Of a stretch of 41,475 nucleotides of DNA, positions 12,075-41,475 are shown one piece after another. This DNA is from Myxococcota bacterium. Lineage in GTDB: Bacteria; Myxococcota; B64-G9. Position 1 is the stretch's first letter. Each line of letters begins with the position of its first letter. A program made the translations under genes and the position numbers. Below the pieces are notes generated by a model that was not told where the DNA came from, did no database searches, and was given only the letters and a program-made list of their open reading frames with translations. Location of the stretch: NCBI GenBank assembly GCA_022710975.1, contig JAKLGA010000013.1, positions 205,363 through 246,837 on the forward strand, written 5' to 3'.

Positions 12075-12163
12075 CCCAAATGGGGGTTGTGGGACGCTCT
12101 CGCCACGAGCTCGCATGGAGGAGTGCGGTGGTCCCGGGGTGCCGGGGCGGGGAAGGGGACGTG

Positions 12164-12355
12164 ATGGACGGAGTCAAGGTGTTCACCGCGACCAAGGCCA
12201 AGGAGCGCTCGACGCTGGGGGACAGGATCACCGAGTGGCTCAGGACCGCGCCGCGCAAGGTGATCCGCGACGTGACCGTCACCCAGTCCAGCGACGAGGA
12301 GTTCCACTGCTTGACCATCTCCATCCTGTACGGGATCGAGGGCGACAAGCGCTGA
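12164..12355 (+). CDS. Small conserved-looking protein of 63 residues, function unknown
   Basis: Codes for a 63-residue soluble, charged protein beginning MDGVKVFTATKAKER. It has a predicted helix (residues 10-28, ending in GDRITEWL) and then a beta-rich half with a QSSDEEFHCLTISILY segment. GAAGGGG lies at 12152-12158; GTG at 12161 is an alternative in-frame start. The hydrophobic/charged pattern and codon bias match neighbouring genes, so it is probably real. I do not recognise a named family. It may share a transcript with the cNMP-like gene 29 bases downstream. Confidence 0.7.
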   Translation: MDGVKVFTATKAKERSTLGDRITEWLRTAPRKVIRDVTVTQSSDEEFHCLTISILYGIEGDKR

Positions 12356-12384
12356 CCGCCGACGGTCCGGCGCTGCCATCCAGC

Positions 12385-12876
12385 ATGGAACACGACTCGG
12401 TGCAGGTGTTGCGCATCGGCCTCCGCCAGGTGGAGGTGGCCGAGTACGTGCGCGAGGACGCGTCCCTGTGGACCTCGCCCCTGCTTGCGCCGCTCCGGCC
12501 GGAGCAGCGCGAGGCCCTGCTGCGGGGCGCCCACGCCCGGGTGGCCGCGGCCGACGAGCCCATCCTGACGGCCCAGCAGACCAGCGCGCTCTACCTCATC
12601 CTGGGCGGGGCCGTGGTGCTGTCGACCGGCGCGGACGGCGCCGGCCTGACCACGCTGGGCAAGGGGGACTTCTTCGGGCTCTCCGGCGTGCTCGACGGCG
12701 CGCCGGCCCTGGCGGCCGCGGCCGACCACGCCGGCGCGCGCCTGGCCGTGCTGCCGGCAGCCAGCGTGCGCGCGCTCGCGGCCGAGGTCGCCGAGCTGCA
12801 CCGGCTGCTCGTGGACACGGCCCGGCGCCGCCAGGCGCTCGCCAGCGCCTGCGCCGACTTCCTCGACCGCTGGTGA
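12385..12876 (+). CDS. Cyclic-nucleotide-binding-like regulatory protein
   Basis: A 163-residue protein. Residues ~35-120 have the look of a cNMP-binding beta-roll (LYLILGGAVVLS, then TTLGKGDFFGLSGVLDG), matching the GD-FG-E/S region of CAP-family effector domains. The usual FGExALL phosphate cassette is replaced by FGLSGVL and the usual Arg is missing, so nucleotide binding is doubtful. No helix-turn-helix follows; the C-terminus is a helical tail. No good ribosome-binding site precedes the ATG at 12385, so the start may be slightly different or coupled to the upstream gene. Confidence 0.6.
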   Translation: MEHDSVQVLRIGLRQVEVAEYVREDASLWTSPLLAPLRPEQREALLRGAHARVAAADEPILTAQQTSALYLILGGAVVLSTGADGAGLTTLGKGDFFGLSGVLDGAPALAAAADHAGARLAVLPAASVRALAAEVAELHRLLVDTARRRQALASACADFLDRW

Positions 12877-12887
12877 GGGGACCCCCC

Positions 12888-13481
12888 GTGCTCCTGCCGT
12901 TCGTCCTGGTCCTCTTCGGCCTGATCTCCCTGGGGCTGGTCTCCTCGCTGTACGCCCTGACGACCACGCGCGTGCCGGTGCTGCGCACGCCCGGGGCGCT
13001 GCTCGACGGGCTGCGGCAGGCGCTCGCCCCGCGCCCCGGGCAGCTCGTGGTGGACGCCGGCGCCGCGGACGGGCGCGCGCTGGCGGCGCTGTGCGCCGAG
13101 CCGGGTGTGCGCGGCCGTGGCTACGAGCTGAACGGCCCGGTCTGGCTGTGGGGCAGCCTGCGCCTGCTGCTCGCGGGCCGGGCGGGCAGGGTGCGGCTGC
13201 GCTGGGCGGACTTCCGCCGCGCGGAGCTCGAGCAGGCCGATCTGGTGTACGCCTACCTGATGCCCGCGGCCATGCCCGCGCTGGGGCAGAAGTGCCTGGC
13301 GGAGCTGCGGCCGGGCGCCCGCCTGGCCTCCTTCATGTGGCCGGTGCCGGACTGGACGCCCGCGCGGGTGGTCCCCCTGGGCCGGCGCCAGGACCCGCTC
13401 TTCATCTACGAGATCCCGCCCGGCCAGTGCGCGGATCGGCCTGCGGACACGGGTCAAAAACTTGACCACCCGCCGGGCTGA
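12888..13481 (+). CDS. Membrane-anchored class I methyltransferase, FAM173/ATPSc-KMT-like
   Basis: A 197-residue protein starting at GTG 12888 behind GAGGGG. Residues ~4-24 form a single membrane anchor. A Rossmann-type SAM-binding fold follows: motif I VVDAGAADGRAL (~50-61), acidic strand GRGYELNGPVW, then a DLVYAYLMP strand and a C-terminal MWPVPDW. The GYELN and following W-L-x-S-L pattern and the P-x-W-x-P segment resemble the FAM173 family, whose eukaryotic members (ATPSCKMT, ANKMT) are membrane-anchored lysine methyltransferases of mitochondrial proteins. Bacterial members are poorly characterised; the substrate here is unknown. It lies 11 bases after the cNMP-like gene, suggesting one transcript. 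Confidence 0.72.
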   Translation: MLLPFVLVLFGLISLGLVSSLYALTTTRVPVLRTPGALLDGLRQALAPRPGQLVVDAGAADGRALAALCAEPGVRGRGYELNGPVWLWGSLRLLLAGRAGRVRLRWADFRRAELEQADLVYAYLMPAAMPALGQKCLAELRPGARLASFMWPVPDWTPARVVPLGRRQDPLFIYEIPPGQCADRPADTGQKLDHPPG

Positions 13482-13489
13482 GCTATCCT
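13462..13489 (+). promoter_or_regulatory. Promoter of sigma-region-4-like gene
   Basis: TTGACC at 13462-13467 and TATCCT at 13484-13489 with a 16-bp spacer. The -35 overlaps the last codons of the methyltransferase gene. It lies about 90 bases before the ATG at 13580, leaving a long 5' leader. Confidence 0.5.
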
Positions 13490-13579: not shown

Positions 13580-13867
13580 ATGCCGGCACGCACGGCCACC
13601 AGGACGACCACCAGGCGAGAGACGCTCAAGAAGAAGAGGGCGTTGCTCGACAAGCTACCCACCCGCGAGGCCCAGGTCCTCAGGATGCGCTTCGGCATCG
13701 AGGAACCTGCCGGAGCGGAGGTGGGCCAACCGGCCGCCGGCTGCCCGCAGGCGGCTCGCGACAAGCTGCAGGCCGTCGAGGAGGAGGTCCTCGACAAGGC
13801 CCGCGGCGGCGAGCCGCCGACCTCGCCCAAGGGCAAGATCCTGCGCTCGTTGAAGAAGAGATCCTGA
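13580..13867 (+). CDS. Small basic protein resembling sigma-70 region 4
   Basis: A 95-residue protein (the ATG at 13580 follows GAGGAGGG). Residues ~28-40, LPTREAQVLRMRFGI, closely match region 4.1 of primary sigma factors (L-x-x-R-E-x-x-V-L-R-M-R-F-G-I). After it, EVGQ aligns with the first HTH helix, and RDKLQAVEEEVLDKAR aligns with the recognition helix RERIRQIEAKALRKLR of region 4.2, with about four extra residues between. The remaining sigma regions are absent. The N- and C-termini are Lys/Arg-rich. It could be a sigma-4-like DNA- or flap-binding regulator or a decayed fragment; the intact frame, strong ribosome-binding site and own promoter favour a functional gene. Confidence 0.65.
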   Translation: MPARTATRTTTRRETLKKKRALLDKLPTREAQVLRMRFGIEEPAGAEVGQPAAGCPQAARDKLQAVEEEVLDKARGGEPPTSPKGKILRSLKKRS

Positions 13868-13936: not shown

Positions 13937-13965
13937 TTGACAGCCATCGCGAAACGGTCGACCAT
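13937..13965 (+). promoter_or_regulatory. Putative promoter of the MCP-CHAT operon
   Basis: TTGACA at 13937-13942, 17-bp spacer, GACCAT at 13960-13965 (weak -10). It is the only good promoter-like pair in the 172-base gap before the MCP gene, about 75 bases upstream of its TTG start. Confidence 0.45.
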
Positions 13966-14039: not shown

Positions 14040-16628
14040 TTGGACAAGCACCCTGCGGAGGAGGAGAGCAGCCTGGCCTTCCGACCCAAGATCGTGACCC
14101 TGGTGGTCGGCATGTGGGTCGTGGTGGCCACGTTCTCCTACCTCTTCATCCAGTTCGTGTTCGACTTCTCGCTGGCGCAGTCCACCGCGATCACCCTCTT
14201 CCTGTGGGTCGGCGGCCTGGTCGCCTGCGCCCTGAGCCTGGCGCTGGTGCTCCGCATCCACAGGCCCTACGTCGACTTCCTGCGCCAGCACGCCAAGGGG
14301 GGCAAGGTGCCCGAGGCCGTGCTGGCCCGGGCCGTCTCCGCCGCGCCGCGCATGCCCATGCTGGCCTCCCTGGTCGGCATGCTCGGCCCCATCCTGTGGA
14401 TGGTGGCCACGGGCATGCTGGCCTACGCCTTCGCCGAGGGCGTGCGCATCCAGATCCCCTTCCTGATGGTGCTCGGCCTGTTCGACGCCATGCTGATGGG
14501 CTCGATGCTGTTCATGCTGCCGCAGGTCTGGACCCGCGGCGCCCAGGAGCTGCTGGCCGGCTACCGCAGCGACGCGCTGGCGGGCCAGGGCATGTCGCTG
14601 ACCTGGAAGATCGGCTCGCTGGGCCTGATGCTGGCCACGGTGCCCACCCTGCTGGTCGGCGCCATGAGCTTCTACACGGCCGACCGGCTGCTCGACAAGC
14701 AGACCGGCGAGGCGCTGCAGGAGCGCCTGCTGGACCTGTCCTTCATCCTGGACGCGCAGCTCACCGCCGGCACCGGCCGGCTCGAGCTGGAGCGGCGCCT
14801 GAGCGTGGAGGCCGCGAAGCTCGGGCCCAAGATCTACCTGCACCTGGGCACCGGGGACGGCGCCTTCTACCGCAGCGAGCGCTCCGAACCGCTGCCGCCC
14901 GGGCTGTACGAGCGTATCCTGGCCGCGCGCGAGCAGAGCCTCAAGGGGACGGTCGTGGCCTCCGCCCGGGCCGGGACCTTCGCCTACGCCTTCTCGGATG
15001 ACGGCCGCACCGTGGTGATCGCCCCGGTGCGCTCCACCGACGAGGCCACGGCCCAGAACCTCCTGTTCCTCATCGTGGGCATCACCCTGTCCTCGATGCT
15101 GGTGGCCGGCGTGGTCGGCCTGATGTTCGCCCGCAGCCTGGGGCAGAAGCTGCGGACCATGTCGGCCCTGGCCGAGGAGGTGGCGCACGGCAAGCTGAGC
15201 CGTGACGTGCGCGTGGTGTCCGACGACGAGCTGGGCGTGCTGGGCGCGAGCCTGTACGGCATGACCGCCAACCTGCGCCGCATGGTGCGCAGCGTCACCG
15301 CCGTGGCCGGGCAGATCGCCTCCACCTGCGGGCAGCTCCAGGTCAAGGCCGAGGCCATCTCCCGCGGCGCCGAGCTGCAGTCCCACGCGGTCGGGGAGAC
15401 CTCGCGCTCGGTGGGCGAGCTGGATACCAACATCCAGAGCGCCTCCGACAACCTCCAGCGCCTGGCCGAGTCCGCGCAGGAGACCGCCGAGGCGGCCCAC
15501 AAGGTGGGCGAGAGCTACAACCTCATGCTGACCGAGATGGCCGCCCTGCAGGACACCGTGGAGCGCACCGGCCAGATCGTCGGCCGCATGGTGGGCTCCT
15601 TCCTGGAGGTGGCCAGCATCATCGCGGAGCTGAGCGACGGCGCGGCGCGCTCGGCCACCTCCATGTCGGAGATGGATCGCTCCATCTCGGCCGTCACCAG
15701 CCGCGCCGGCGACACGGCCCAGATCGCCCGCAAGGCCATCGAGGCCGCCAGCGACGGCGCCGCCTCGGTGCGCCGCACCATCAACGGCATGGACCGCATC
15801 GTGGGCTCGACGCTGACCGCCTCGGACGTCATCCAGGGCCTGGGCAACCGCATCGAGGCCATCGGCAGCATCCTGGGGGTGATCGAGGACATCGCCGATC
15901 AGACCAACCTGCTGGCGCTGAACGCGGCCATCATCGCCGCCCAGGCCGGCGAGCACGGCCGCTCCTTCGCCGTGGTGGCCGACGAGATCCGCTCGCTGGC
16001 CGAGCGCACCAGCACCTCCACCCGCGAGATCGGCCAGATGATCGCCGACATCCAGGAGGGCTCGGGCCAGGCCATCAAGGCCATGCGCGAGGGCATGGGC
16101 ATCGTCAACGAGGGCGTGTCGCTCGCCAAGCAGGCCGGCGACTCGCTCAACCAGATCCTGACCAGCGTCCAGCGCGCCACCCAGAACGTCGAGGAGATCG
16201 CCCAGAACACCGAGTCGCAGGCGGCCGCCAGCGAGCTGGTGACGCGCGAGATGGCCCAGGTGGCCGAGATGGCCGGACGCATCAGCCAGGCCGCGGTGGA
16301 CCAGACCCGGGCCGGCCAGCAGCTCCAGGAGGCCTTCCAGGGCACGCTGCAGACCACCCGCTCGCTGAGCTCGCGCGTCAACCAGCAGGCCCAGGAGAGC
16401 CGCATGGCGCTCTCGGCCGTGGCGGCGATGAACGAGGCCGCCAGCCGGGCCCACGAGGCCATGCTGGCGCAGTCCACCATCTCCGAGGGCATCCTGGCCG
16501 CGATCCACCGCATCGAGCAGGTGGCCAAGGAGCACGCCGGGGCGGCCGCCGACATGGGCGGCGGCACCCAGACCCTGGGCGAGAAGAGCGACCGCCTCAA
16601 GGAAGAGATCGCCGGCTTCGACGTATGA
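14040..16628 (+). CDS. Methyl-accepting chemotaxis protein with multi-spanning N-terminus
   Basis: An 862-residue chemoreceptor. About five membrane segments occupy residues 18-212, an extracytoplasmic region of ~120 residues follows, then a last membrane segment (~338-360), a HAMP domain (~362-415) and a long coiled-coil signalling domain to the C terminus. The hairpin tip [22 protein letters not shown] is clear. At the positions equivalent to Tsr Glu385 and Arg388 (trimer contacts) it has Ile632 and Gln635. The start is TTG 14040, 6 bases after GAGGAG. The stop overlaps the ATG of the giant CHAT lipoprotein gene, so the two are co-translated. No CheA/CheW or CheR/CheB genes are nearby. Confidence 0.9.
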
Positions 16629-19600
16629 GCCCGCTCCCTGGAACCCGCCCGGGCGCGCGCCATCGGGCGAAGGGCGGTATCGCGGCGCGGCCGGCAGGGT
16701 GGCTGGCGGGCTGCGCCCTGGCCGCGGCGTGGCTGCTGGCCGGCTGCGCCCCGCCCCGGCCCGACGCGCTGGCCGGCGCGACCCGGGCCGGCCCGCGGGG
16801 CGGGGGCGAGTTCCAGCCACGCCAGCTCAGCGCGCACCTGGCCGACGAGCTGTCGCCGGTCGTCGACGCGCGGCGCGGACGCCTGCTGTACGTATCCACC
16901 CAGGGCGGGGATCGCGACGTCTGGGCCCGCCCGCTAGCGGGCGGCTCGCCGGAGCGCCTGACGCCCCACTCGTCCGACGACTTCGACCCGGCCCTGTCCC
17001 CGGACGGCGCCCGGCTGGCCTTCGCCAGCCTGCGGCTGGACTCCAAGGGTGATCTGTTCCTGGCCGGGCCCGACGGCGAGCGGCCGGAGCGCCTGACCAC
17101 CCGGGAGACCTCCGATCGCCAGCCGGCCTTCTTCCCGGACGGGCAGCGCCTGGCCTTCACCTCGTCCGCGGGCGCCGAGCCCGAGGCCATCCACAGCCTC
17201 TCGCTCGAGGACCGCCGGCGCGCGCGGTTGAGCTCCCGGCCGGGCTTCGATCCGGCCGTGTCGCCCGACGGCGCGCTGGTGCTGTTCACCTCGCGCACGC
17301 CGCCCGCGCCCGGCGGCGGCGCCCCGGCCGTGGCCTGCCTGTGGCTGCACCGCCTGGCGGACGGGCTGGAGCGGCCGCTGCACGCCTGCGTCCGGCCGGA
17401 GGGCTTCGGCACGTTCGCCCGCCTGGACGGGGCGACCTGGGTGGTCTGGAGCCGGTTCCAGGACGACACCAACGGAGACGGCCAGGTGGACCTGCAGGAT
17501 CGGCCCAGCCTGTGGCGCCAGCGGCTCGTGGACTTCAGCGGGGACACGCCGCAGGTCGGCCCCCTCACGCCGCTGACGCCGGGCACGTCCGCGGACATCA
17601 CCCCGACGGTGCACGCGGACGCGCTGGTGTACGCCTCGCGCCAGGACGAGGATCTCGACCTGTGGACGGCGCCGCTGGCCGGGGCGCTGGCGCCCGTGGC
17701 CAGCGGCCAGGAGGCGCTGCGCCAGGCCGAGCAGCTCGAGGACCCCCTGGAGGCGCTGTTCCTGCTGCGCCGCTGCGCCGCGGACCGGGCCGGGCTGCCG
17801 GACGCGGACGCCTGCGCGCTGGCCGAGGCCGGCCGCCTGCTGACCGCGCGCCGCACCGCGCAGGCCGCCGAGGTCTACGCCGCCCTGGCCGCGACCGCCA
17901 CCGCGCCCGAGGTGCGGGCCGAGGCCGGCCTCGGTCAGGTGGAGGCCATGACCCAGGCGCGCCTGCCCCTGGGGCTCACCCCTTCGCAGCAGCGCGAGCG
18001 CGCGCCCGAGGGAGAGGCCCTGCTCGCCCGCCTGGAGGGCCTGCCGGGGCCGCCGGCGGCCCGGGCGCTGGCGCGGGCCGACATCCAGCGCCGCATCGGC
18101 CGCTGGGGCGAGGCCCTGGCCGAGCTGGAGGGGCTGCTGGCCGCGTCCGGGCTGTCCGACACCCAGCGCGCGCGGGCGCTGCTGCTGCGCTCGGAGGTGC
18201 TGAGGGTGCTGGGCAACCCCGAGGCTGCCAGGCAGAGCCTGCTGGAGGTGCTGGCGCGCCACCCCGCCCAGCGCGTCGAGCGCCTGGAGGCAGCCCGCCA
18301 GATCCTGGACCTCGCCCGGCAGGGTGGTCCGCTGGCCGGCGCGGGCCAGGGCGAGGTCGAGCGGCTCGAGGAGCTGGCCCGCGACCACGCGGAGCTGCCG
18401 CTGCTGGCGGCGCTGGTGCGGCTGGAGATCGGCCGACTGCACCGGGCCGCGGGCCAGCCGGAGCTGGCCGCGCGCGACTTCCGCCGCGTGGAGGCCGACT
18501 ACCCGCAGGAGACCGAGCTGTGCGCGCGCGCGTTGCTGGCCCTGTCCGATCTGGCCGAGAAGCGGGGCGACGTGGGGCAGGCGCTGGATCACGCCCAGGA
18601 GCTGCTCGAGCGCTACCCCGACTCGGTCGAGCAGGCGCGCAAGGCGCGCCGGCGGGTGCGGCAGCTGGCGGGGGCCTACGCAGAGGACCTGGTCAGCACC
18701 GGGGAGACCGGGTTGGCCATCAAGGTCTACCGCCAGCTGCTCGAGCAGGATCCCGACGACGTCGTGGCCCACCGCCAACTCATCGCCATGCTGGCCGCGC
18801 GGGGCCGGGCGGCCGAGGCCGTGGCCACCTACCGCGCGCAGGCCGCGGCGCGGCCCGGGGACGATCTGTCGATCTACCTGCAGGCCCTCGCGCTCACCTA
18901 CCTCGAGCCGCCGGAGCACTTCGACGAGGCCGAGGACCTGCTCGAGCAGGCGCTGGCGATCAACGAGCAGTCGGCCTTCGCGCACCAGACCCGGGCCTGG
19001 CTGCTGGAGCAGCGCGCCCACCTCGCGGGCGGCGACGAGGAGCGGCTGATGCGGGCGGCCGAGGAGTACCAGGCCGCGCTGGCGCTGCTGGACACGCGGG
19101 CCTACCCGGGGGCCGCGGCGGATCTGGAGCTCAACCTGGGCAACGTCTACCACGCGCTGGGCAACCACCGGCGCGCCCACCAGTTCTACAAGCGCCGCGA
19201 GGCCATGGAGATCCCCTTCGCCCTGCCCGAGCGGCGGCTGGTGTTCCTCGAACAGTTCGGCCGCTCGGCCTTCCTGTGCGACGAGCTCGAGGACGCCGCG
19301 CGCGCCTACGCCGCGGCCGCGCCGCTGGCGCGCGAGCTGAAGCGCACCCGGCGCCTGCCGCGCATCCTGGCCGGGCAGGCGGCCGCGCTCCAGCTCCAGG
19401 GGCGCCACGCCGAGGCGGCCGAGCTGTTCCGCAAGGTGTGCAAGGCCTACGGCGACTCCGGACAGCGGCAGCGCCTGGCGAGCTGCCAGCGCAACGTGGC
19501 CTACAACCTGTACAAGCAGGGCCGCGCGCGCGAGGCCGCCGAGGCCTTCGCCGAGGCCAGGAGCCTGCTGGAGCGCCACGGCGCCGCCGGCGCGGACGAT

Positions 19601-22600
19601 GAGCGGGTGGTCGAGGTGGGGCTGGGGGCGGAGGCCTCCCGGGCGGCCTCGGGCTTCGATCGGGCGGGCGAGCTCAACTTCCTGTCCACCTACCAGGCGC
19701 GCCTGTTCCGCGAGGCCGGCGACACCGGGCGGGCCGCCGCCGCGCTGGGGCAGAAGCTCGAGCTGCTCGAGGCGGAGCTCGGCGCGCGCCGGCCGGCCTC
19801 GGTGCTCCTGGATCTCGCCATCGCCACCAACCAGCTGGCCGTGCTGCAGCTCGAGCAGGGCCAGGAGCTGGCCGCCGCCCGGGGCTTCGCCCGGTCGGGC
19901 CGGCTGTCGGACGAGGTGCAGAACGCCCAGGGCATCTCGGCCAACGCGCTGAACCGGCTGCGCCTGGCGCTGACGGGCCGGGCCGGGCTCGAGCCGGGGG
20001 CGCTGGTCGCGGAGCTGGAGGCGGTCCGGGCGCGCCTGGCCGCGGGGCTGAATTCGTCCGAGCGCGTCTGGATCGAGCTGCTGGCCGGCCTGGGCGCGGC
20101 CCGGGTGGCCGCCCTGGACGCTGACCCGCGCCCGCCCGCCTACCCCGCGGGGGCGGCGCCGGCCGAGCGGCTGCGCCTGGCCGGAGAGGAGCTCGACCGC
20201 GTGGCCCGGGGCCTGCGGTCCGCCGAGGCGGAGCTGCGAGAGGCGCTGAGCCGGGCCCGCGCGCTGGCGGCGGGCAGCCGGGACGGCGCGCGGCTCCTGG
20301 TGCAGGTCGCCGCCAGCCTGGCCGGGGTGCTGACCCGGCTCGGTCACGAGGAGGAGGCCGCCGCCCTGGTGGCCGAGGCCCGACGCCTGGCGGACGGGCT
20401 GGCGCTGTGGGAGGTCGCCTGGCGCCTGCCGGACGGCGAGCCCGCCGCCCGGGCGCGGGCGCTGCTCGAGCTGCCTCCGACCCTGACGCGGGTGCGTGGC
20501 GACGGCGCGGCCGAGGAGGCCGGCGGCCGGCTGTTCGGCGGGCTCCTCCGGCAGGCGCTCGCCGAGGGGCGGCCGGACGAGGCCCTCGGCTGGGCCGAGG
20601 CCTGGCGCCTGCGGCTGCGGGTCGAGGCCCTCGGCCCCGGCGACGTGCGCGCCGGGTCGGAGGCGGATCGCGCCTGGCTGGAGCAGCTCGAGATGCACGC
20701 CCAGGTGCTCGTCCAGGGGCTGGACAGCCTGGACCCGGGCCTGCCCGAGAAGCAGCGGGCCGAGCGGTGGGCCGAGGCCGCGGCGCGCCTCCAGGCCTGG
20801 CGGGAGCTGCGCGACCGGGGCGGCCAGCCTCGCGAGGTGCTGCGCGAGATGCTGCAGGGCCGGGCGGCGGGGGTCGAGGAGCTCGGCCGGCTGCTCGAGC
20901 CCGGCGAGGCGCTGCTCACCGCCGCGCGCCTGGCCGACGGGCTGGCGCTGTTTTTGCTGGACGCGAACGGGCTCCAGGCCGAGTGGGTGGAGGTCTCCCC
21001 GGCGGAGCTGAACGCCGCCCTCGGGCGCCTGACCGGGCCGGACCCGGCCCAGGCCTCCGGCGCCCGCGCCCAGCTCTCCGCCTGGCTGCTGAAGCCGTTC
21101 GAGGCGCGCCTGGCGGGCTGCCGCAGCCTGCTGGCCGCCACCGACGAGCTGGGCCTGTCTCCGGCGCTGCTGGTGCTCGGGGGCAAGGCCCTGGTGCAGC
21201 TCATGCCGGTCGCCCAGCTCGGCGCCGCCAGCGATCTCCGCTGGGCCAGGCGCTTCCGCAGCGTGGGGCAGGAGCGGGCGCTGTGGGTGGGGGCCTCGCC
21301 TCCCAAGGCGGTGGGCCGCGCGCTGCTGGCCGGCTACGGGGCCCTGAGGGAGCTCACCGGCACAGCCGAGAGCGTGCAGCAGGGCCTGGCCGGGGCGGGC
21401 CTGGCCGTCTGGGGGACCCGGCTGCTGGCGTCCCGACCTCGCCCGCTGCGCTCGTCCTTCGAGCTGGACGCCGCGCTGGGCGGCCTCGGCGGCGTGCCGC
21501 TGGGCGGGCTGGCCGGGGCGCCGCTGGGGCACGGGCTGTGGATCCTGGCCGGGGGAGAGGCGCGGACCGGCGCGGCCCCGGGCGAGGGGCTGTCGCTGGC
21601 GCTGGCCGGGGCCGAGGTGCCCAGCGCCCTGGTCCTGCCGCTCGAGCTGAGCAGGCCCTGGGCCGCCGGGCTGTTCGAGGGGCTGATCGCCGGGCTCTCG
21701 GCCGAGAGCCCGACCGAGGCGCTGCGGGGCGCCCTGGACAAGGCCCTGCGGGAGCGCCAGGTGGGCTGGCAGGCGCTCCTGGGCGTCGAGCTGCGCGGCG
21801 ACCCTGGCATGGGGGAGGCCTCCCGCAAGGCCTTCGCCCAGCGCGAGATCGCCTCCGCCATCAAGCTGGCCATGCAGACCTACCAGGACAAGCGCTGGGC
21901 GGATTCTCTGGGCGCCTTCCTCAAGGTTCGCCGGCTGGCCGTGTACCTGGGCCAGACCGCCCTGCTGCCCAGGCTCGACGCGGCCATCGTGCAGAGCGCC
22001 TTCCAGCTCGGCGAGTACGCGCTGGCCGTGGAGGTGGAGCGCCGCATCCTGACCGCGGCCGAGGCCACCTCCGACAAGCTGGCCGCGGCCCGGGCGCGCA
22101 ACTTCCTGGGCGTGCTGCTCTCCAAGGCCGAGGAGCACCCGGCGGCCCTGGGCGCGCTCGCCCAGGCCGTGGGCGAGCTCGACGGCCTGTCCCAGACCGC
22201 CGAGGCCGCTCAGGCGCAGGCCAACCTGGTGCTGGCCCTGGACGCGGCCGCGCGCTACCCCGAGTCGGTCGAGGCCGCCCGGGGCGCGCTCGCGCGCTTC
22301 AAGGCGCTGGGCGACCGCGAGCAGGTCCTGCGCATGCTGCGCACGCTCGGCGCCACCCACCTGCGGCGGCTGAACATGACGGCGGCGGCCCGAGGCTGGT
22401 TCGAGCAAGCGCTGGCGCTGGCGCGCGAGCTGGGCGTCCCGGCGCGGATCGGCGAGGTCAGCCTCGATCTGGTGCGCACGGAGCTGGCCGCGGGGGCCTA
22501 CGAGGCCGCGCTCGGCCGGGCCAAGGAGGCGGAGGGCATCTACCAGCAGGCGGGCGACCGGCGGGGCCAGGCCGAGGCGGTGCTCGAGCAGGCCGGGGCC

Positions 22601-24679
22601 CTGTGGTACCTGGGCGAGTACCAGCGCGCCTTCCTGGCCCAGCGGCAGGCGCTGACCTTCGCCGAGGAGGCCGAGGACACCCTGCTCGGCATCCGCGCGC
22701 GCAGCCTGGGCGGCCTGATCGCGCTGAACCTCGGGGACCTGCCGGGCGCCGAGCGCGCGCTGGACGCGGCCCTGCAGGCCGCCCGCCGGATGGGTTTCCG
22801 CGCCGAGGAGGCCACGCAGCTCAACAACCTGGGCATCGTGGCCCGCGAGAAGGGCGATCTCGACCAGGCCGTCGAGCGCTTCGCCGCCGCGCTGGCCATC
22901 GACGAGCAGCTCAAGAGCGTGCTCGGGCGGGCCTACGATCTGCGCAACCTGGGGCTGGCCGAGCAGCTCCAGGGGCGCCTGGAGCAGGCCACCCTGCACC
23001 TGGAGGAGGCCCTGCAGCTCAGCCGCTCGGTGCAGGACGTGTTCAACGAGGTCAAGGCCCGCGTGGGCCTGGCCGCCCTCGAGCTGGCGCGGGGGCGGCT
23101 CGAGCAGGCGGCGGATCACGCCCAGGAGGCGCACCGCCTGTCGGTCCAGGCCGGGCTGCGGGACGTGTCCTGGCGCGCGCTGCGCACCCTCGGCCTGGTG
23201 GCCGAGCGGCAGGGCCGGCTGCCGGACGCGCGGGCGCACTACGCGGCGGCCATCGGGCTGGTCGAGGAGATGCGCGCCAGCCTCAAGGTGGAGGAGTTCC
23301 GCTCGGGCTTCCTGGACAGCAAGTTCGATCTCTACGAGGACATGATCCACCTGCTGGTGGAGCTGGGGGAGAGCGAGGCGGCCTTCGCCTACACCGAGCG
23401 CTCGCGCGCGCGCGGCTTCCTGGATCTGCTCGCCAACCGGCAGATCGAGGTGGGCATCGCTGGCGACCAGGTGCTGCTGGAGCGGTTGCGGCGGGCCCGC
23501 GAGGAGCTGGTCCCCCTGGGCGAGGCCGTGCGTCGGGCCGCGCCCGAGGAGCGCGCGGCGGCCGAGGCCGACCTGGCCAGGGCCCGCCAGGAGTACCTGG
23601 ACCTGCTCGAGCAGATGCGCCGCGCCCAGCCCGATCTGGCCGACTTCGTCGAGGTGCGGCCTGCCTCGGCCGCCGAGATCCAGGCCCGGCTTCCCGAGGG
23701 GGTGGCGCTGCTGGCCTACTACGTCACCCGCCGGGACGTGCTGGTCTTCGTGCTGCGCAGAGATGGGCTGGGTGCGCTCAAGCTGCCCATTTCTCGCGAG
23801 GAGCTGGCCAGGCGCGTGGCCGAGGTGCGCTCGCTGATTGAGGCCTTCTCCCCGGTCGAGGCCGAGCTCACGGCGCTGTACCGCGATCTGGTGGCGCCGC
23901 TGGCGGACGATCTGGGCGGGCTCCAGAGCGTGGGCGTCCTGCCCCACGACGTGCTCAACTACCTGCCCTTCGCGGCGCTGATGCCCGGGCCGGGCGTCTA
24001 CTGGGGCGACCGGGTGGAGCTGTTCGTGGACCCCTCGGCCAGCGTGCTGATGCAGCTGCTGCACCGCGAGGACGCCCGCTTCGGCCCGGCCGGCGGGCTG
24101 GTCGCGCTGGGGAACCCCGAGCTCGGGGATCCGGCGTTGGCCCTGCCGTTCGCCGAGCAGGAGGCGGCCGCGGTGGGCTTCGAGCAGGCCGGCGGCGCGG
24201 TGCTGGTGGCCCAGGACGCCTCCGAGGCCGCCTTCCGCGCCCAGGCCGGCCGGGCCGATCTGCTGCACCTGGCCTGCCACGGCAGCTTCGATCCGCAGAG
24301 CCCGCTGTTCTCCTCCCTGCTGCTCACCCCGGGCGACGGCCAGGACGGGGCGCTGACCGCCCTCGAGGTCTTCGGGCTGGCGCTCAGCGCCCGCCTGGTG
24401 ACCCTGTCCGCCTGCCAGTCGGGGCTGGGCAGCCTGCGCTCCGGCGACGAGATCATCGGCCTGAACCGCGCCTTCCTGTCGGCCGGCGCGGGCGCGGTCC
24501 TCTCCAGCCTTTGGCGGGTGAGCGACGTGGCCACCGCGGTGATGATGAAGCGCTTCTACCGCAACCTGCGCCAGGAGCCGCCCGCGGCGGCGCTCCGGCG
24601 GGCGCAGCGCCTGGTGCGCCAGTACTTCCCGCACCCGGCCTACTGGGCGCCCTTCTACCTGCTGGGCACCTGGCGCTAG
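16625..24679 (+). CDS. Giant lipoprotein: PD40 - TPR - degenerate CHAT - TPR - CHAT peptidase
   Basis: A 2,684-residue predicted lipoprotein (lipobox LLAGC, Cys41). Residues ~60-355 are TolB/PD40-like propeller repeats ([14 protein letters not shown] type). Residues ~360-1420 are mostly TPR/helical. Residues ~1423-1730 form a CHAT-like fold without catalytic residues. A second TPR array (~1735-2350) ends in [14 protein letters not shown], the usual lead-in to CHAT. Residues ~2356-2684 are an intact CHAT domain with His2552 in LACHGSF and Cys2597 in LSACQSG, ending in [15 protein letters not shown] domains are caspase-like clan CD peptidases, often acting on partner proteins sensed by their TPRs. 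The ATG overlaps the MCP stop (ATGA). Length is far above usual TPR-CHAT proteins (about 900-1,200). Substrate unknown; surface or periplasmic location is inferred. Confidence 0.88.
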
Positions 24680-24731
24680 CGCCTTGTGCGCGGCGCTGGA
24701 ACGGATGCAACCTCATGGCAGGGAGGATGGC

Positions 24732-26825
24732 ATGCGGAATGGATCAGCGTTTTCTGGGTGGATCGCGCGCTCATGCGCGCTCTGTTTTCTGTTCGTCGCA
24801 CCCGCCTGTGAGCTGGGCCCATCTCATCAGGTCCCCTGTCAGCTGAGGCTCTGCCCGGATGGTGCCTGTTCCGAGTGCTGTGCGGCCGAAGACTGCGGCG
24901 CTCTGGACGTCTGCCTCCTCGGAAGCTGCGTCGCGAACACGCTAGGCATGCCCTGCGATTCGGCCGAGGACTGCGCCGGACAAGTGGTCTGCGATCTCGA
25001 CCTGGGGATCTGCGTCAGACCTTGCGAAGCGGATTCGGACTGCGCGTCGGAGTCCGTTCCCTTTGGAGGCGACCGGCTGTGCTCGGGTGGCGGGGTTTGC
25101 GGCTTCCAGCCGTGTGCTGAGGATGGTGAATGTCGCGCCGGGACCGTGTGCTTCGAGGACCGGTGCGTCTCCGGGAGCGGCGTCCTGCGCGTGCAGGTGA
25201 TCGATGGGCGGAGCGGAGGTCCTCTCGCCGGTGCGGCGGTCTCGGTCGAACAGCCCTCCCTGGCCGCCGTCACCGCGCGGACGAGAGAGGACGGCGTGGC
25301 CCAGTTCCTCTCGCTCGACCTCGCGGCGTTGCCTGGCAGGGTCGGGGTGCGGGCCGAGGGCATGACTCCGCTGGAGTCGCTGGAGGCGGCGACCAACCGG
25401 ATGGAGCTGACCCTCGAGCCAGGGGTTCTCGACGGCACGGGTGGTATCCGCTCGGCGCTGGACTTCGCGTCCGTGCCTTGCGCTGCGGGCCACCCCTGTG
25501 AATCGAGGTGGGGGCTCGCGGGACTTTCGATCCCCTTGAATCCCTTCGCGCGCCTTCCCCAGAGGGCTCTCGGAGAGAACGTTCGGATGTACATCGTCGT
25601 GGGGGGCACCGGTGTCGACCGCGGATTCCCCGGAGGAACGGTGGTCGGGATGGGCCAGACTTGGTTCCACGAGTACGCCGAACCGACGGGACCAGTCGGA
25701 CGACGAACGCTCTGGGGTCTCGGGCGCTACCTCGACGTGGCCCAGCTCATCCAGAGCTTTGGCACGATGGTCCAGGACTATACCGCCGGCGGCTCCAGCG
25801 CCGCGACCATGGTCGCCTTGACCTTCGAGAAGACCCTGCGCGGCGCCGGCAGCGGCCTGGTGACCGACCTCGAGATCGCGCCGGTCGGCTGGGTCGTGGA
25901 CACGGACGACGTCGACGGCGACGATCGCCGGGACGACTTGGTGCCGGACTACTCGGCGCTGCCGCCCTCGTCTGGTGGTCCGCTCGCGATGCCCGAGCAC
26001 GCGTCCAAGGCCTTGTTCGTACACGTTCCGGCCTTGCCCGCAGCACCTGCAGGTGGCTTCACCTATGACGCCGTCCTGGTCGTCGCGGCCGTGGCTGTGC
26101 CCGGACTGGGCCTGGTGCCGCTTGGGCTCGGCGCGGGTGCTGACCGGCAACCCGCGCTCGATGCGGTCGCAGATGGCTTCATCGAGGACATCACCGTCCA
26201 GACGGCGGACATCGGAGGCAGGCTACCTGCGGAGACCTCGCAGCGGCTGGTGATCGCGCTTGCCTTGGGCGGTGGGCCCTGCGGCGGGAACGGCGTGGAT
26301 CGCCCCTGGGCCGTGGTTGGTCAGGTGTTCCAGTTGCCCGCCTTCGAGGGGGAGCTGACCTTGCGGCCGTTCTCTCAACCGCCCTCGGTCAGCCTCGACA
26401 CACTCACCGGGGGCGTCCAGATCTCCGGCCTGTCAGCCGAGGTGGGCGCCCTGGCTCTCCTGGTTCACGCTACCGAGCAGAACCTGTGGCAGCTCCTGTC
26501 TCCACCGCAGGAGGGCACGCTCATGCTGCCCGCGCCGCCGCCCGGCCTGGAGAGCATGGACGGGGTGGTGCTGGCCGGGCTGGAGTTCGCCGACGGAAGG
26601 ACCTACCAGGAGCTGCTCGCAGGCGAGGGAGTCGCTCTCGGGGAGCTCCTGCTCGGCCTGGACGGCTTCAGCCTGGCCTGGTCGGAGGGTGCGGAGCCGG
26701 ACTGTGGCTGCGGGACGGGTGCGGCCGGCGGTGGGCTCTGGCTGCTCCTGCTGGCCGCCGGGGCCGGGGTGCTGCGCTGCATACACCCTACAACGCGTCG
26801 GGCTTCGCGGAGTCAGACTCAGTAG
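24732..26825 (+). CDS. Cys-rich lipoprotein with Ig-like domain and MYXO-CTERM-like tail
   Basis: A 697-residue protein. The signal peptide ends at VAPAC, a lipobox-like site. Residues ~30-145 hold many Cys in CxxxxDC-type units, followed by a carboxypeptidase-regulatory-like beta domain (VLRVQVIDGRSGGPLAGAAV, ~152-235). A long beta-rich body of unknown fold follows. The C terminus has DCGCGTG, an Ala/Leu hydrophobic helix and an Arg-containing tail, resembling the MYXO-CTERM sorting signal. The ATG at 24732 follows GGAGG by 5 bases. Third codon positions are less GC-biased than in neighbours, hinting at a different history. Its last 38 bases overlap the 3' end of the convergent PEGA-like gene. 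Confidence 0.75.
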   Translation: MRNGSAFSGWIARSCALCFLFVAPACELGPSHQVPCQLRLCPDGACSECCAAEDCGALDVCLLGSCVANTLGMPCDSAEDCAGQVVCDLDLGICVRPCEADSDCASESVPFGGDRLCSGGGVCGFQPCAEDGECRAGTVCFEDRCVSGSGVLRVQVIDGRSGGPLAGAAVSVEQPSLAAVTARTREDGVAQFLSLDLAALPGRVGVRAEGMTPLESLEAATNRMELTLEPGVLDGTGGIRSALDFASVPCAAGHPCESRWGLAGLSIPLNPFARLPQRALGENVRMYIVVGGTGVDRGFPGGTVVGMGQTWFHEYAEPTGPVGRRTLWGLGRYLDVAQLIQSFGTMVQDYTAGGSSAATMVALTFEKTLRGAGSGLVTDLEIAPVGWVVDTDDVDGDDRRDDLVPDYSALPPSSGGPLAMPEHASKALFVHVPALPAAPAGGFTYDAVLVVAAVAVPGLGLVPLGLGAGADRQPALDAVADGFIEDITVQTADIGGRLPAETSQRLVIALALGGGPCGGNGVDRPWAVVGQVFQLPAFEGELTLRPFSQPPSVSLDTLTGGVQISGLSAEVGALALLVHATEQNLWQLLSPPQEGTLMLPAPPPGLESMDGVVLAGLEFADGRTYQELLAGEGVALGELLLGLDGFSLAWSEGAEPDCGCGTGAAGGGLWLLLLAAGAGVLRCIHPTTRRASRSQTQ

Positions 26826-27514: not shown

Positions 27515-28216
27515 GTGCAGAACCGCGCAGCGCTCTACGGGGCCCTGGCCGTGACCGTGGCGGCCGGGGTGGTCGTGTGGCTGATGATGGAGCGGCCGAC
27601 CGGGCCGACCGGGGCGGCCGAGGGCCGGCCCGCGGCCGACCTGCCGGCCGAGGCGGAGCCCGGCGCGGAGCTGGGCACGCCGGTGCGGGCGGTTCCGCCG
27701 GCCGGTCCGGCCTCGGCGGCGGCCAGCCCGGCCGGGCCGAAGGCCGCGCGGCCCGCCTTCCCCAGGCCGAAGAACCGGGTGGACCCGTCTGCCCGGGAGG
27801 CCATGCTCCGCGACCTGCGCTCCCGGGTGGCCCACCGGGGCGAGCCCGCAGGGGAGGGCGGGGCCGACCCGCAGGCGGGCAAGGACGAAGAGCCCCGGGG
27901 CAGCCTGTCCAAGGAATACATCCAGCAGTCGATCCGCGAGATCATCCCCCTGGTCAGGGAGTGCTACGAGCTGGCCCTGGCCGAGCAGCCCGAGCTGACG
28001 GGCAAGATCAAGGTGCGCTTCGAGGTGGTGGCCGACGAGGAGCAGGGCGGGCTGGTGGCGGACAGCCAGCTCGTGCTCGAGGAGGGCCAGCCGCCCCCCA
28101 GCGCGCTGCTGGCCGAGTGCGTGCAGGAGAGCATGTACGCACTCAAGCTGCAGGCTCCGAAGGGCGGCGGCAAGGTCGTGGTGACTTACCCCTTCATCTT
28201 CAACCAGGAGCGCTGA
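27515..28216 (+). CDS. AgmX/PglI C-terminal domain protein
   Basis: A 233-residue protein starting at GTG 27515 just after GAGGAGGG. An N-terminal membrane helix (residues ~7-25) is followed by an Ala/Pro/Gly-rich linker and a folded C-terminal domain of ~100 residues: SKEYIQQSIREIIPLVRECYE, GKIKVRFEV, and a final VVVTYPFIF strand. This is the AgmX/PglI C-terminal domain, a TonB-C-like module with a single-TM anchor found throughout Myxococcota, including the adventurous-motility proteins AgmX and PglI. It probably spans the periplasm; a role in motility is not shown by context here. Confidence 0.78.
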   Translation: MQNRAALYGALAVTVAAGVVVWLMMERPTGPTGAAEGRPAADLPAEAEPGAELGTPVRAVPPAGPASAAASPAGPKAARPAFPRPKNRVDPSAREAMLRDLRSRVAHRGEPAGEGGADPQAGKDEEPRGSLSKEYIQQSIREIIPLVRECYELALAEQPELTGKIKVRFEVVADEEQGGLVADSQLVLEEGQPPPSALLAECVQESMYALKLQAPKGGGKVVVTYPFIFNQER

Positions 28217-39344: not shown

Positions 39345-41475
39345 ATGACCAGGCAGATGAAGCTGTGTGGCGCGATCGTTGTGGGCGCGTGGCTCGTGGT
39401 GCTCGGGTTCGGGTGCAGTGAACCCGTCGAGCCGAGAGAGCTGGGGACCAAGGGCCATCCAATCTTCTACGGCACGGTCGACGACGTGCCCTCCCACGCC
39501 GCGGTCGTGGCGGTGACCGACGCGGGCGGAGCCTACTTCTGCTCCGGCACGCTGATCTCGGAGTACGTGGTGCTCACCGCGGCGCACTGCCTGGAGGGCG
39601 AGACCGCGGCCGGCGTGCGCATCTTCTTCGGCTCCGACGTGGACCCGCCGGCCATCGTGGGCGAGTACCGCAACGTGAGCGAGATCCTGGTCCACCCCCA
39701 GTACACCGGGTCGGGCAACGACCTCGCCCTGGCCCGGTTGAGCTCGGCGCCGCCCGCGGGCATCGCCCCGATCCCGGCCCTTCCGCTGGCCCTGGGGCTG
39801 ACCGCCGCGGACAACAACACCACCACGGTGGACTTCTCCGGGTTCGGCCTGACCGAGAACGACACCGACGGGATCAAGCTGCACGTGGACGGGACCATCG
39901 CGCTGGTGTGCGCAGGCCCGGCGAGCTGCACCTACAGTGGCAACTCGGTCGTGCCCAAGTCCTTCGCCTACAGCCAGGCCGGTGCGATCGGCGGGCCTTG
40001 TTCGGGCGACTCGGGCGGACCGGCCTTCGTCCTGCGCGACGGCGTCGAGTACACGGCCGGCGTGACCTCGTACGGCGACTGGTACTGCACCGAGTACGGG
40101 GTGAGCGCCACGGTGTCCGAGTTCGAGTCATTCATCACCAACTTCATCAACCAGCTCCCGCCCGAGAGCTGCGCCAACGGCGTGGACGACGACGAGGACG
40201 GGGCCACCGACTGCGACGACAGCGATTGCGCCGGCGACGTGGTGTGCCTGCCGAACGCCTGCACCGTGGCCACGCGGGTGGGCTGTGGCTCGAGCCTCAG
40301 CTCGACCACCCAGGGCGCCACGGACCTCTTCAGCGCCTACTCCTGCGCCGGCTGGGCCGAGGACGGCCCCGAGAAGGCCTACCTGCTCGACATCCCGGAG
40401 GGCGCCCAAGTCACTGTGAACATGGATCCGACGCAACAGACCCGGGACCTCGATCTCTTCCTGCTGGGGGGAGCCTGCGATCCGGGCTCCTGCATCGACC
40501 AGAGCTCGAACGGCGGCTCCGATCCCGAGCAGATCGTGTTCACCATGCCGGCGGGCGGCGCCTACGCCATCGTCGAGACCTACGCCCAGCCGGCCACCTT
40601 CACCTTCAGCGTCTCCTGCCAGGGCGCGAGCGAGGACTGCGACAACACCTTCGACGAGGACGGCGACGGGGCCATCGACTGCGCTGATCCGGACTGCCTG
40701 GGCGATCCGGCCTGCGGCCCCGTGCCCGAGGTCTGCGACAACGGCGCGGACGACGACGGGGACGGCTTCGTCGATTGCCTGGACAGCGACTGCGCGGCGG
40801 CGCCGAACTGCCAGCCGGTGCCTGAGGTCTGCGACAACGGGGCGGACGACGACGGGGATGGCCTCGCGGACTGCGACGACGTGGACTGCGCCGCCTTCCC
40901 GGCCTGTATCCCGACCGCCTGTGGCGTGGCGGCGACCGTCGGCTGCGGCGCGAGCTTCAGCTCGACCACCGCAGGGGCGACGGACCTGTTCGACACCTAC
41001 TCGTGCACCGGCGTGACCGAGGGCGGGCCCGAGCTGGCCTACTTCCTCGATCTCCCAGAGGGCACCCTGGTGATCCTGGACATGGAACCCACCCAGGCGA
41101 ACCGAAATCTGGATCTGCTCCTGCTGGGCGGGGGCTGCGACCCGGCCGCCTGCCTCGCCCAGAGCTCGAACCCCGGCTCCGATCCCGAGCAGCTCGTGTT
41201 CTCCATGCCGGCGGGTGGTGCCTACGTGCTCATCGAGACCCCTGCGGCAACCAGCACCTTCAACTTCAGCGTGACCTGTCCGGGTCCGGCCGAGATCTGC
41301 GACAACGGCGCGGACGACGATGGGGACGGGCAGGCGGACTGCGACGATGCGGACTGCGCGGCGGCGCCCAACTGCCAGCCGGTGGCGGAGATCTGCGACA
41401 ACGGCGCGGACGACGACGGGGACGGGCAGGCGGACTGCGACGACGCGGACTGCGCGGCGGCGCCCAACTGCCAGC
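39345..41475 (+). CDS. Trypsin-family serine protease lipoprotein with PPC and Asp/Cys-rich repeats (3' truncated)
   Basis: The frame runs open for 710 codons to the window edge. Signal peptide with lipobox LGFGC (Cys24). Residues ~38-265 are a chymotrypsin-fold protease: His81 in LTAAHC, Asp126 in NDLALARL and Ser223 in GDSGGP. Residues ~307-425 and ~526-645 are two pre-peptidase C-terminal (PPC)-like beta domains. Between and after these are 32-residue units EICDNGADDDGDGxxDCxDxDC that resemble thrombospondin-3-type calcium loops: one before PPC1, three between the PPCs and at least two after PPC2. The ATG follows GGAGGAG by 7 bases. Likely a surface-attached protease used in predation or nutrition, as inferred from its family and the organism type. 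Confidence 0.9.
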   Translation, partial: MTRQMKLCGAIVVGAWLVVLGFGCSEPVEPRELGTKGHPIFYGTVDDVPSHAAVVAVTDAGGAYFCSGTLISEYVVLTAAHCLEGETAAGVRIFFGSDVDPPAIVGEYRNVSEILVHPQYTGSGNDLALARLSSAPPAGIAPIPALPLALGLTAADNNTTTVDFSGFGLTENDTDGIKLHVDGTIALVCAGPASCTYSGNSVVPKSFAYSQAGAIGGPCSGDSGGPAFVLRDGVEYTAGVTSYGDWYCTEYGVSATVSEFESFITNFINQLPPESCANGVDDDEDGATDCDDSDCAGDVVCLPNACTVATRVGCGSSLSSTTQGATDLFSAYSCAGWAEDGPEKAYLLDIPEGAQVTVNMDPTQQTRDLDLFLLGGACDPGSCIDQSSNGGSDPEQIVFTMPAGGAYAIVETYAQPATFTFSVSCQGASEDCDNTFDEDGDGAIDCADPDCLGDPACGPVPEVCDNGADDDGDGFVDCLDSDCAAAPNCQPVPEVCDNGADDDGDGLADCDDVDCAAFPACIPTACGVAATVGCGASFSSTTAGATDLFDTYSCTGVTEGGPELAYFLDLPEGTLVILDMEPTQANRNLDLLLLGGGCDPAACLAQSSNPGSDPEQLVFSMPAGGAYVLIETPAATSTFNFSVTCPGPAEICDNGADDDGDGQADCDDADCAAAPNCQPVAEICDNGADDDGDGQADCDDADCAAAPNCQ
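41292..41475 (+). repeat. 96-bp coding repeats in protease stalk (array continues beyond window)
   Basis: Two nearly identical 96-bp units begin at 41292 and 41388; they differ at only a few synonymous positions in the visible part. Earlier units (from about 40164, 40634, 40730, 40826) are diverged copies of the same 32-residue module. The recent near-identity at the end suggests ongoing duplication. Confidence 0.8.

Follow-up and report, generated by a model that had tools for sequence, protein, structure and literature searches.

A conserved gene pair of a chemoreceptor and a giant exported CHAT lipoprotein in one order of Myxococcota, with a possible joint role in envelope sensing

Why should the gene of a chemoreceptor run into that of a giant exported protein with caspase-like CHAT domains, and do the two products act together? 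The question is raised by a 41,475-nucleotide stretch of DNA from a Myxococcota bacterium (the window; assembly GCA_022710975.1, contig JAKLGA010000013.1, positions 205,363 to 246,837), which has a G+C content of 72.9% and lies at one end of a 247-kb contig (G000:C5) of a 7.1-Mb draft genome. Coordinates are window positions unless another locus is named, G000 is the genome of the window, and "the order" stands for the nine genomes of the order of uncultured, myxobacteria-like organisms to which it belongs. As the initial annotation proposed, a methyl-accepting chemotaxis protein (MCP) with six membrane segments overlaps by 4 bp (ATGA) a lipoprotein of 2,684 residues: open reading frames, whose coordinates were verified, hydropathy, the AlphaFold2 (AF2) model and the lipobox agree on this point. 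The pair brings known parts into a new combination that we did not find in the literature searched, searches for MCP together with CHAT having given nothing relevant, in line with the earlier statement that no such system is described. We tentatively lean toward a reading in which this order has connected a giant envelope-sensing lipoprotein, possibly a protease, to a chemosensory receptor, a joint function that we infer from the gene pair.

The pairing itself is firmly conserved within the order. Separate searches of the nine genomes with the middle of the lipoprotein and with the N-terminal part of the MCP recovered both genes in eight genomes; the ninth, 70% complete, yielded neither. In all eight genomes holding either gene, the two are adjacent and on one strand (for G006, this was read from a short contig carrying the MCP gene and the beginning of the lipoprotein gene). 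Since the proteins share only 40 to 55% (MCP) and 40 to 52% (lipoprotein) identity across the order, such adjacency argues for more than chance. The neighboring genes are less constant, a gene for a sigma-70 region-4-like (sigma4-like) protein being found upstream of the MCP gene in 6/8 genomes and a gene with a cyclic-nucleotide-binding domain being co-oriented in 5/8. The start of the giant gene overlaps or closely follows the MCP stop, with overlapping starts available in five of six genomes; in the remaining locus (L026), its first start lies at +21 from the MCP stop. The overlap suggests coupled translation and stoichiometry. Among 195 genomes of the phylum, only those of the order yielded MCP homologues of this type.

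Five of the six genomes in which the sigma4-like gene lies upstream have a promoter-like site between it and the MCP gene, the window included and L026 being the exception; the other four sites read TTGACA-16-TAAAAT (two genomes), TTGACA-17-AAAACT, and TTGACT-16-TACAAT. These sites are consensus matches, not transcripts, and were equaled in 0/300 shuffles for three of the five genomes, in 2/300 for one, and in 17/300 for L023. The initial annotation had named a separate promoter inside the MCP gene as the observation that would speak against a shared transcript, and the scan found no promoter-like site there. With a promoter-like site ahead of the MCP gene, none within it, and a terminator-like hairpin past the lipoprotein gene, the pair most likely forms a two-gene transcription unit. 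The earlier proposal that the cotranslated pair serves a joint function thus gains the 8/8 pairing and the promoter-like and terminator-like context, while the steps from there to a joint function are those that we infer below.

The product of the first gene has the layout of a six-helix chemoreceptor. Both HAMP (PF00672, amino acids [aa] 363 to 413, 26.5 bits against a cutoff of 25) and MCPsignal (PF00015, aa 561 to 743, 136.6 bits against a cutoff of 34.6) exceed their Pfam cutoffs, and hydropathy and the AF2 model (mean pLDDT of 79) agree on six membrane helices. The model shows an N-terminal four-helix membrane bundle, TM5, a small alpha/beta sensor resembling a single Cache (sCache) domain, and TM6; HAMP and the signaling hairpin come next in the sequence. 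The best Foldseek matches of the sensor region are the sensor regions of WalK, McpB, and McpA, the top ones being models of WalK and McpB. This sensor is absent from the MCPs of G003 and G005, where a gap lies between TM5 and TM6 (L026 and L027) and the giant CHAT partner is kept. The hairpin tip is the same or nearly the same in the MCP on contig C3 and in the MCP of a Che operon of the window's genome. The idea that the tip IIAAQAG, compared with the common EAARAG, marks a decoupled receptor was rejected, as the C3 MCP has an identical tip and the Che-operon MCP has IIAAAAG.

The initial annotation noted that no Che genes accompany the pair, which is true locally; the genome nevertheless encodes seven MCPs and nine CheW-domain matches in several clusters. 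One of these is a CheA-CheW-CheW-MCP-HEAT-CheR operon on contig C12, the order and content of which are conserved in the same eight genomes as the pair (the G007 contig breaks off within the MCP gene, and the reading of G005 stopped at the HEAT gene). Its CheA, 60 to 64% identical where complete, occurs in exactly the eight pair-bearing genomes and not in the 70%-complete ninth. The MCP of this operon shares the layout of the window MCP, and their N-terminal membrane and sensor regions are homologous (hhalign, 97.4%, E = 1.3e-11, 340 columns). Judged by sequence, the window MCP and the Che-operon MCP are paralogues over their full length, and the window MCP is hence an orphan receptor of that family rather than a Che-independent protein; a Che-free system was rejected, the genome having CheA/CheW clusters, one of them with this paralogue. 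Such orphans are common in this branch and make up 13 of the 21 MCPs of Myxococcus xanthus (PMC3945109). The paralogy and the shared phyletic pattern suggest that the window MCP may feed the CheA of this operon. As a separate observation, Che operons do not usually include a HEAT-repeat protein such as the one of about 670 to 680 aa encoded here.

The lipoprotein was earlier described as combining a PD40 propeller, two TPR arrays, and two CHAT-type domains. Pfam bears out the first two, with PD40 repeats and two TPR blocks, and detects one CHAT domain, the C-terminal one. In this domain, a His and a Cys align with H615 and C658 of Csx29, the mutation of which abolishes cleavage (PMC10028731). 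Both residues are retained in 28/28 relatives aligned, at overall identities down to about 27%, so that the C-terminal CHAT looks catalytic and would act as a protease. The internal CHAT, which Pfam leaves undetected in the lipoprotein, was recognized by comparison with the C-terminal one (hhalign, 97.4%, E = 1e-11, 296 columns) and by its AF2 fold (pLDDT of 79), the best Foldseek matches being the Craspase TPR-CHAT, DdvA, and separase (E values down to 2e-7, with TM-scores of only about 0.3). The catalytic His and Cys are missing at the homologous places of this unit in every relative aligned. Both CHAT units therefore stand as folds, only the C-terminal one has the dyad, and two active CHAT domains were rejected; on this alignment and fold evidence, the internal unit is a pseudo-CHAT, a real fold but dead as an enzyme. 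A lipobox-like Cys is found in the homologues of the order that have an N terminus, and most Nitrospinota homologues have ordinary signal peptides; the giant protein of the window, with its lipobox, is probably lipid anchored. Against TolB, it gives a partial match of 61 bits (cutoff of 343). A Craspase-like or other defense locus was rejected, as the NCBIfam Csx29 model scores far below its cutoff (37 bits against 300) and PADLOC matches are only weak and generic.

Outside the order, GTDB genomes and the CHAT proteins of the phylum were scanned, which revealed giants of the same architecture and length (about 2,400 to 2,850 aa) in records labeled Nitrospinota, Nitrospirae, Desulfobacterales/Desulfuromonadales, other Deltaproteobacteria, and Pseudobacteriovorax, as well as in other families of the window's phylum. 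No MCP gene stands in front of the giant gene at any of the 21 outside loci with at least 1 kb upstream (0/21), and no MCP tip was found within 1.5 kb at 29 other CHAT loci. The search for such pairs suggested by the initial annotation thus has a split outcome, always in this order (8/8) and never outside it, and a widespread MCP-CHAT pair was rejected. The upstream neighbors of the Nitrospinota giants are unrelated genes. A small-protein gene of DUF1318 (PF07027, matched in the E. coli control), which we take to be the YdbL family, lies directly upstream of the giant gene in seven of the eight non-Nitrospinota loci (L076 being the exception), and in three of them (L134, L137, and L138), a DUF748/AsmA-related protein of 1,100 to 1,300 residues precedes DUF1318. 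In the window's order, neither gene was seen beside the pair; most genomes have a DUF1318 gene away from the giant gene, adjoining a large AsmA-like frame wherever this was checkable. In E. coli, ydbH-ynbE-ydbL belongs to AsmA-type phospholipid transport and outer membrane lipid homeostasis (PMC8593681). On the most economical account of these neighborhoods, the exported CHAT giant would be an envelope component of long standing that is often linked with lipid transport of the AsmA type. Such lipid-transport-like neighbors hint at a giant protein that watches the cell envelope.

Altogether, we propose a model in which the giant gene would have been placed, in this order, behind a duplicated chemoreceptor gene, with the MCP and the lipoprotein, made from one transcription unit, adding an envelope-sensing branch to a chemosensory pathway. 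The lipid anchor would hold the lipoprotein outside the cytoplasm, where it could monitor the state of the envelope or a partner. Binding at the TPR/pseudo-CHAT part may switch the C-terminal CHAT protease in a Csx29-like manner, and the state of the lipoprotein, set by its TPR, propeller, and pseudo-CHAT parts and perhaps by proteolysis, could be read by the extracytoplasmic face of the MCP through contact or through a cleavage product. Physical contact between the two proteins would fit this scheme, and the envelope lipid state is our best guess for the signal. From the MCP, the signal would pass via HAMP and along the hairpin of 64 heptads to the CheA and CheW proteins of the CheA-CheW-CheW-MCP-HEAT-CheR system.

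Several observations weigh against this model. The giant protein does without an MCP outside the order. A mirror-tree comparison in six genomes gives only a weak correlation between the distances of the MCP and those of the lipoprotein (r = 0.32). Local synteny is partly kept anyway (sigma4-like, cyclic-nucleotide-binding, and convergent acyltransferase-like genes), so that the adjacency of the pair could be partly inherited. The loss of the sCache-like sensor in G003 and G005 with the pair kept means that contact cannot depend on this domain. Lastly, the AsmA assignment of the outside neighbors consists of subthreshold Pfam matches (E = 1.5e-4 and 5e-6) and, for L138, of homology.

The main rival, which we hold to be possible but on the doubtful side, is coexpression without contact: the genes would share a promoter because they answer the same envelope or surface condition, the lipoprotein would help to maintain the envelope on its own, as a scaffold or a protease, and the MCP would be an ordinary orphan. 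In its favor, orphan MCPs are common (PMC3945109), giants exist in other phyla without an MCP, the mirror-tree signal is weak, and the sensor lost in two genomes leaves no obvious contact surface; against it, the two genes, at about 50% identity, stay adjacent in 8/8 genomes, more tightly than any other neighbor, and the overlap points to coupled translation and stoichiometry. An improbable alternative makes the MCP a substrate of the CHAT protease, which would cut the receptor to switch or destroy signaling, as Csx29 cuts Csx30. The single Csx29 cut in Csx30 (PMC10028731) and the invariant dyad (28/28) would suit it, but two points lower its likelihood: relatives without a nearby MCP conserve the dyad just as well, and the MCP can lose its one sizeable extracytoplasmic part, which G003 and G005 lack. 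Equally hard to credit is that the CHAT is no working protease, the giant being a TPR/propeller binding scaffold of the outer membrane lipid-transport machinery and the MCP neighbor a local accident of the order: DUF1318/AsmA-like neighbors in other lineages and a CHAT unit already dead speak for it, but neutrality would not keep the C-terminal His and Cys in 28/28 relatives down to about 27% identity.

Several known systems each resemble a part of the pair. Csx29 has TPRs followed by a pseudo-caspase (CHAT1) and an active caspase unit (CHAT2) that is allosterically activated, and it cuts Csx30, the product of the neighboring gene csx30 (PMC10028731). Csx29/Craspase (type III-E CRISPR) and separase share with the giant protein the TPR or helical repeats, the pseudo-caspase, and the active caspase-like unit with aligned His and Cys, whereas the giant protein adds a lipobox export signal, about four times the length, a propeller, and an additional CHAT unit, complete but degenerate; no link to Cas7-11 or Csx30 was found, Cas7-11 itself not having been searched for. 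The nearest solved CHAT outside CRISPR and separase is that of DdvA, the transmembrane anti-sigma factor of M. xanthus (PDB 8rot and 8rw5), like the pair a CHAT-bearing membrane signaling system, although DdvA is one polypeptide controlling an extracytoplasmic-function (ECF) sigma factor and the window has a separate lipoprotein beside a chemoreceptor. Orphan and Che-operon MCPs of M. xanthus share HAMP and the signaling hairpin with the window MCP, and its orphans likewise lack adjacent che genes and are assigned to Che systems by relatedness (PMC3945109); unlike them, the window MCP has a fixed partner gene for a giant CHAT lipoprotein. The giant loci outside the order resemble E. coli ydbH-ynbE-ydbL through DUF1318 and, in three, AsmA/DUF748-like genes, whereas in the window's order DUF1318 sits elsewhere in the genome; we know of no giant CHAT protein at the E. 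coli locus. With TolB of Tol-Pal, the giant protein shares only the PD40 propeller, and no Tol-Pal genes were seen alongside.

Around the pair, other features deserve mention (Table 1). The sigma4-like gene is not certainly part of the system; its inclusion in the MCP-lipoprotein transcript was rejected, as the second promoter-like site before the MCP points to a separate unit, with read-through possible. All six genomes with the sigma4-like gene show an (A/G)AAACTTGAC block ahead of it. The palindrome there occurs once in the window and is nearly unique to this locus, which holds three of the five exact sites in the nine genomes. The sigma4-like protein and the palindrome recur in six genera. 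Further upstream, the cyclic-nucleotide-binding gene lies on the opposite strand in G006 (L029). Just past the CHAT gene starts a gene whose lipoprotein-like, Cys-rich product has at its C terminus a GCGTG-hydrophobic-Arg tail similar to a MYXO-CTERM sorting signal; no such gene was found at this position in the other genomes examined. Two more distant proteins are listed in the table.

Table 1. Positions of the gene pair, its parts, neighboring features, and related loci
Feature	Position	Strand	Description
MCP gene	14040..16628	+	862 codons, TTG start; six-helix orphan chemoreceptor
sCache-like sensor	14772..15035	+	About aa 245-332; predicted extracytoplasmic; AF2 + Foldseek
Signaling hairpin	15279..16625	+	Cytoplasmic; 449 aa, 64 heptads; HAMP to C terminus; gap-free across 7 homologues
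Hairpin tip	About 15903-15959	+	Invariant CheA/CheW-binding tip (7 MCP homologues)
Gene overlap	16625-16628		ATGA
Giant lipoprotein gene	16625..24679	+	2,684 codons; lipobox Cys41, PD40 propeller, TPR array 1, degenerate CHAT, TPR array 2, catalytic-looking CHAT
Signal peptide and lipobox	16625..16747	+	LLAGC (aa 37-41, Cys41); from sequence
Internal degenerate CHAT	20831..21736	+	About aa 1403-1704; profile-profile + fold
C-terminal CHAT	23864..24667	+	PF12770, 208 bits (cutoff 24), E = 2e-61, aa 2414-2681
His2552	24278-24280	+	Aligned to Csx29 H615
Cys2597	24413-24415	+	Aligned to Csx29 C658
Promoter-like site ahead of MCP	13937..13965	+	TTGACA-17-GACCAT; 9/12 match; 0/300 shuffles as good
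Terminator-like hairpin	24764..24790	+	85 nt past lipoprotein gene
Sigma-70 region-4-like gene	13580..13867	+	95 aa, Lys-rich, motif TREAQVLRMRFGI; PF04545, E = 3e-4, below cutoff
Palindrome GTCAAAAACTTGAC	13453..13489	+	Overlaps promoter-like TTGACC-16-TATCCT; upstream of sigma4-like gene
Cyclic-nucleotide-binding-domain gene	12115-12876		Upstream
Cys-rich lipoprotein-like protein	24684-26825
Protein with AgmX/GltG-type C-terminal domain	27515-28216		NF033768
Acidic double-disulfide repeats	39345-41475		NF033662, six stretches; protein extends beyond window
Che operon	L048 4944-13741		G000:C12; relatives L098-L104
MCPs without sCache-like sensor	L026 5547-7763; L027 11718-13913		Giant CHAT gene still paired
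DUF1318-giant loci	L134 8711-13082; L137 10813-14896; L138 3076-7057		Also AsmA/DUF748-like gene
DUF1318-giant loci	L081 1923-2504; L078 7443-8039; L085 7666-8205; L136 6037-6504		DUF1318 only

Most known CHAT proteases, among them Craspase and separase, are cytoplasmic, and the inputs described for chemoreceptors are small ligands and binding proteins. A bolder version of our model, which we consider unlikely as it stands, would have a caspase/separase-type protease act outside the cytoplasm as a sensor of envelope integrity belonging to the outer membrane lipid-transport machinery and, in this order, be wired to a chemoreceptor, so that the bacterium "tastes" the cell's own envelope via the chemosensory array. 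We found no description of the DUF1318/AsmA-like neighborhood of the giants, which is new beyond the gene pair and gives a first functional lead. If the strictly conserved pairing of a chemoreceptor with an exported CHAT protein truly reflects a joint function, it would constitute a new input for chemosensory systems; the DUF1318/AsmA-like context, for its part, raises the possibility of a protease component of AsmA-type lipid transport, a question in outer membrane biogenesis.

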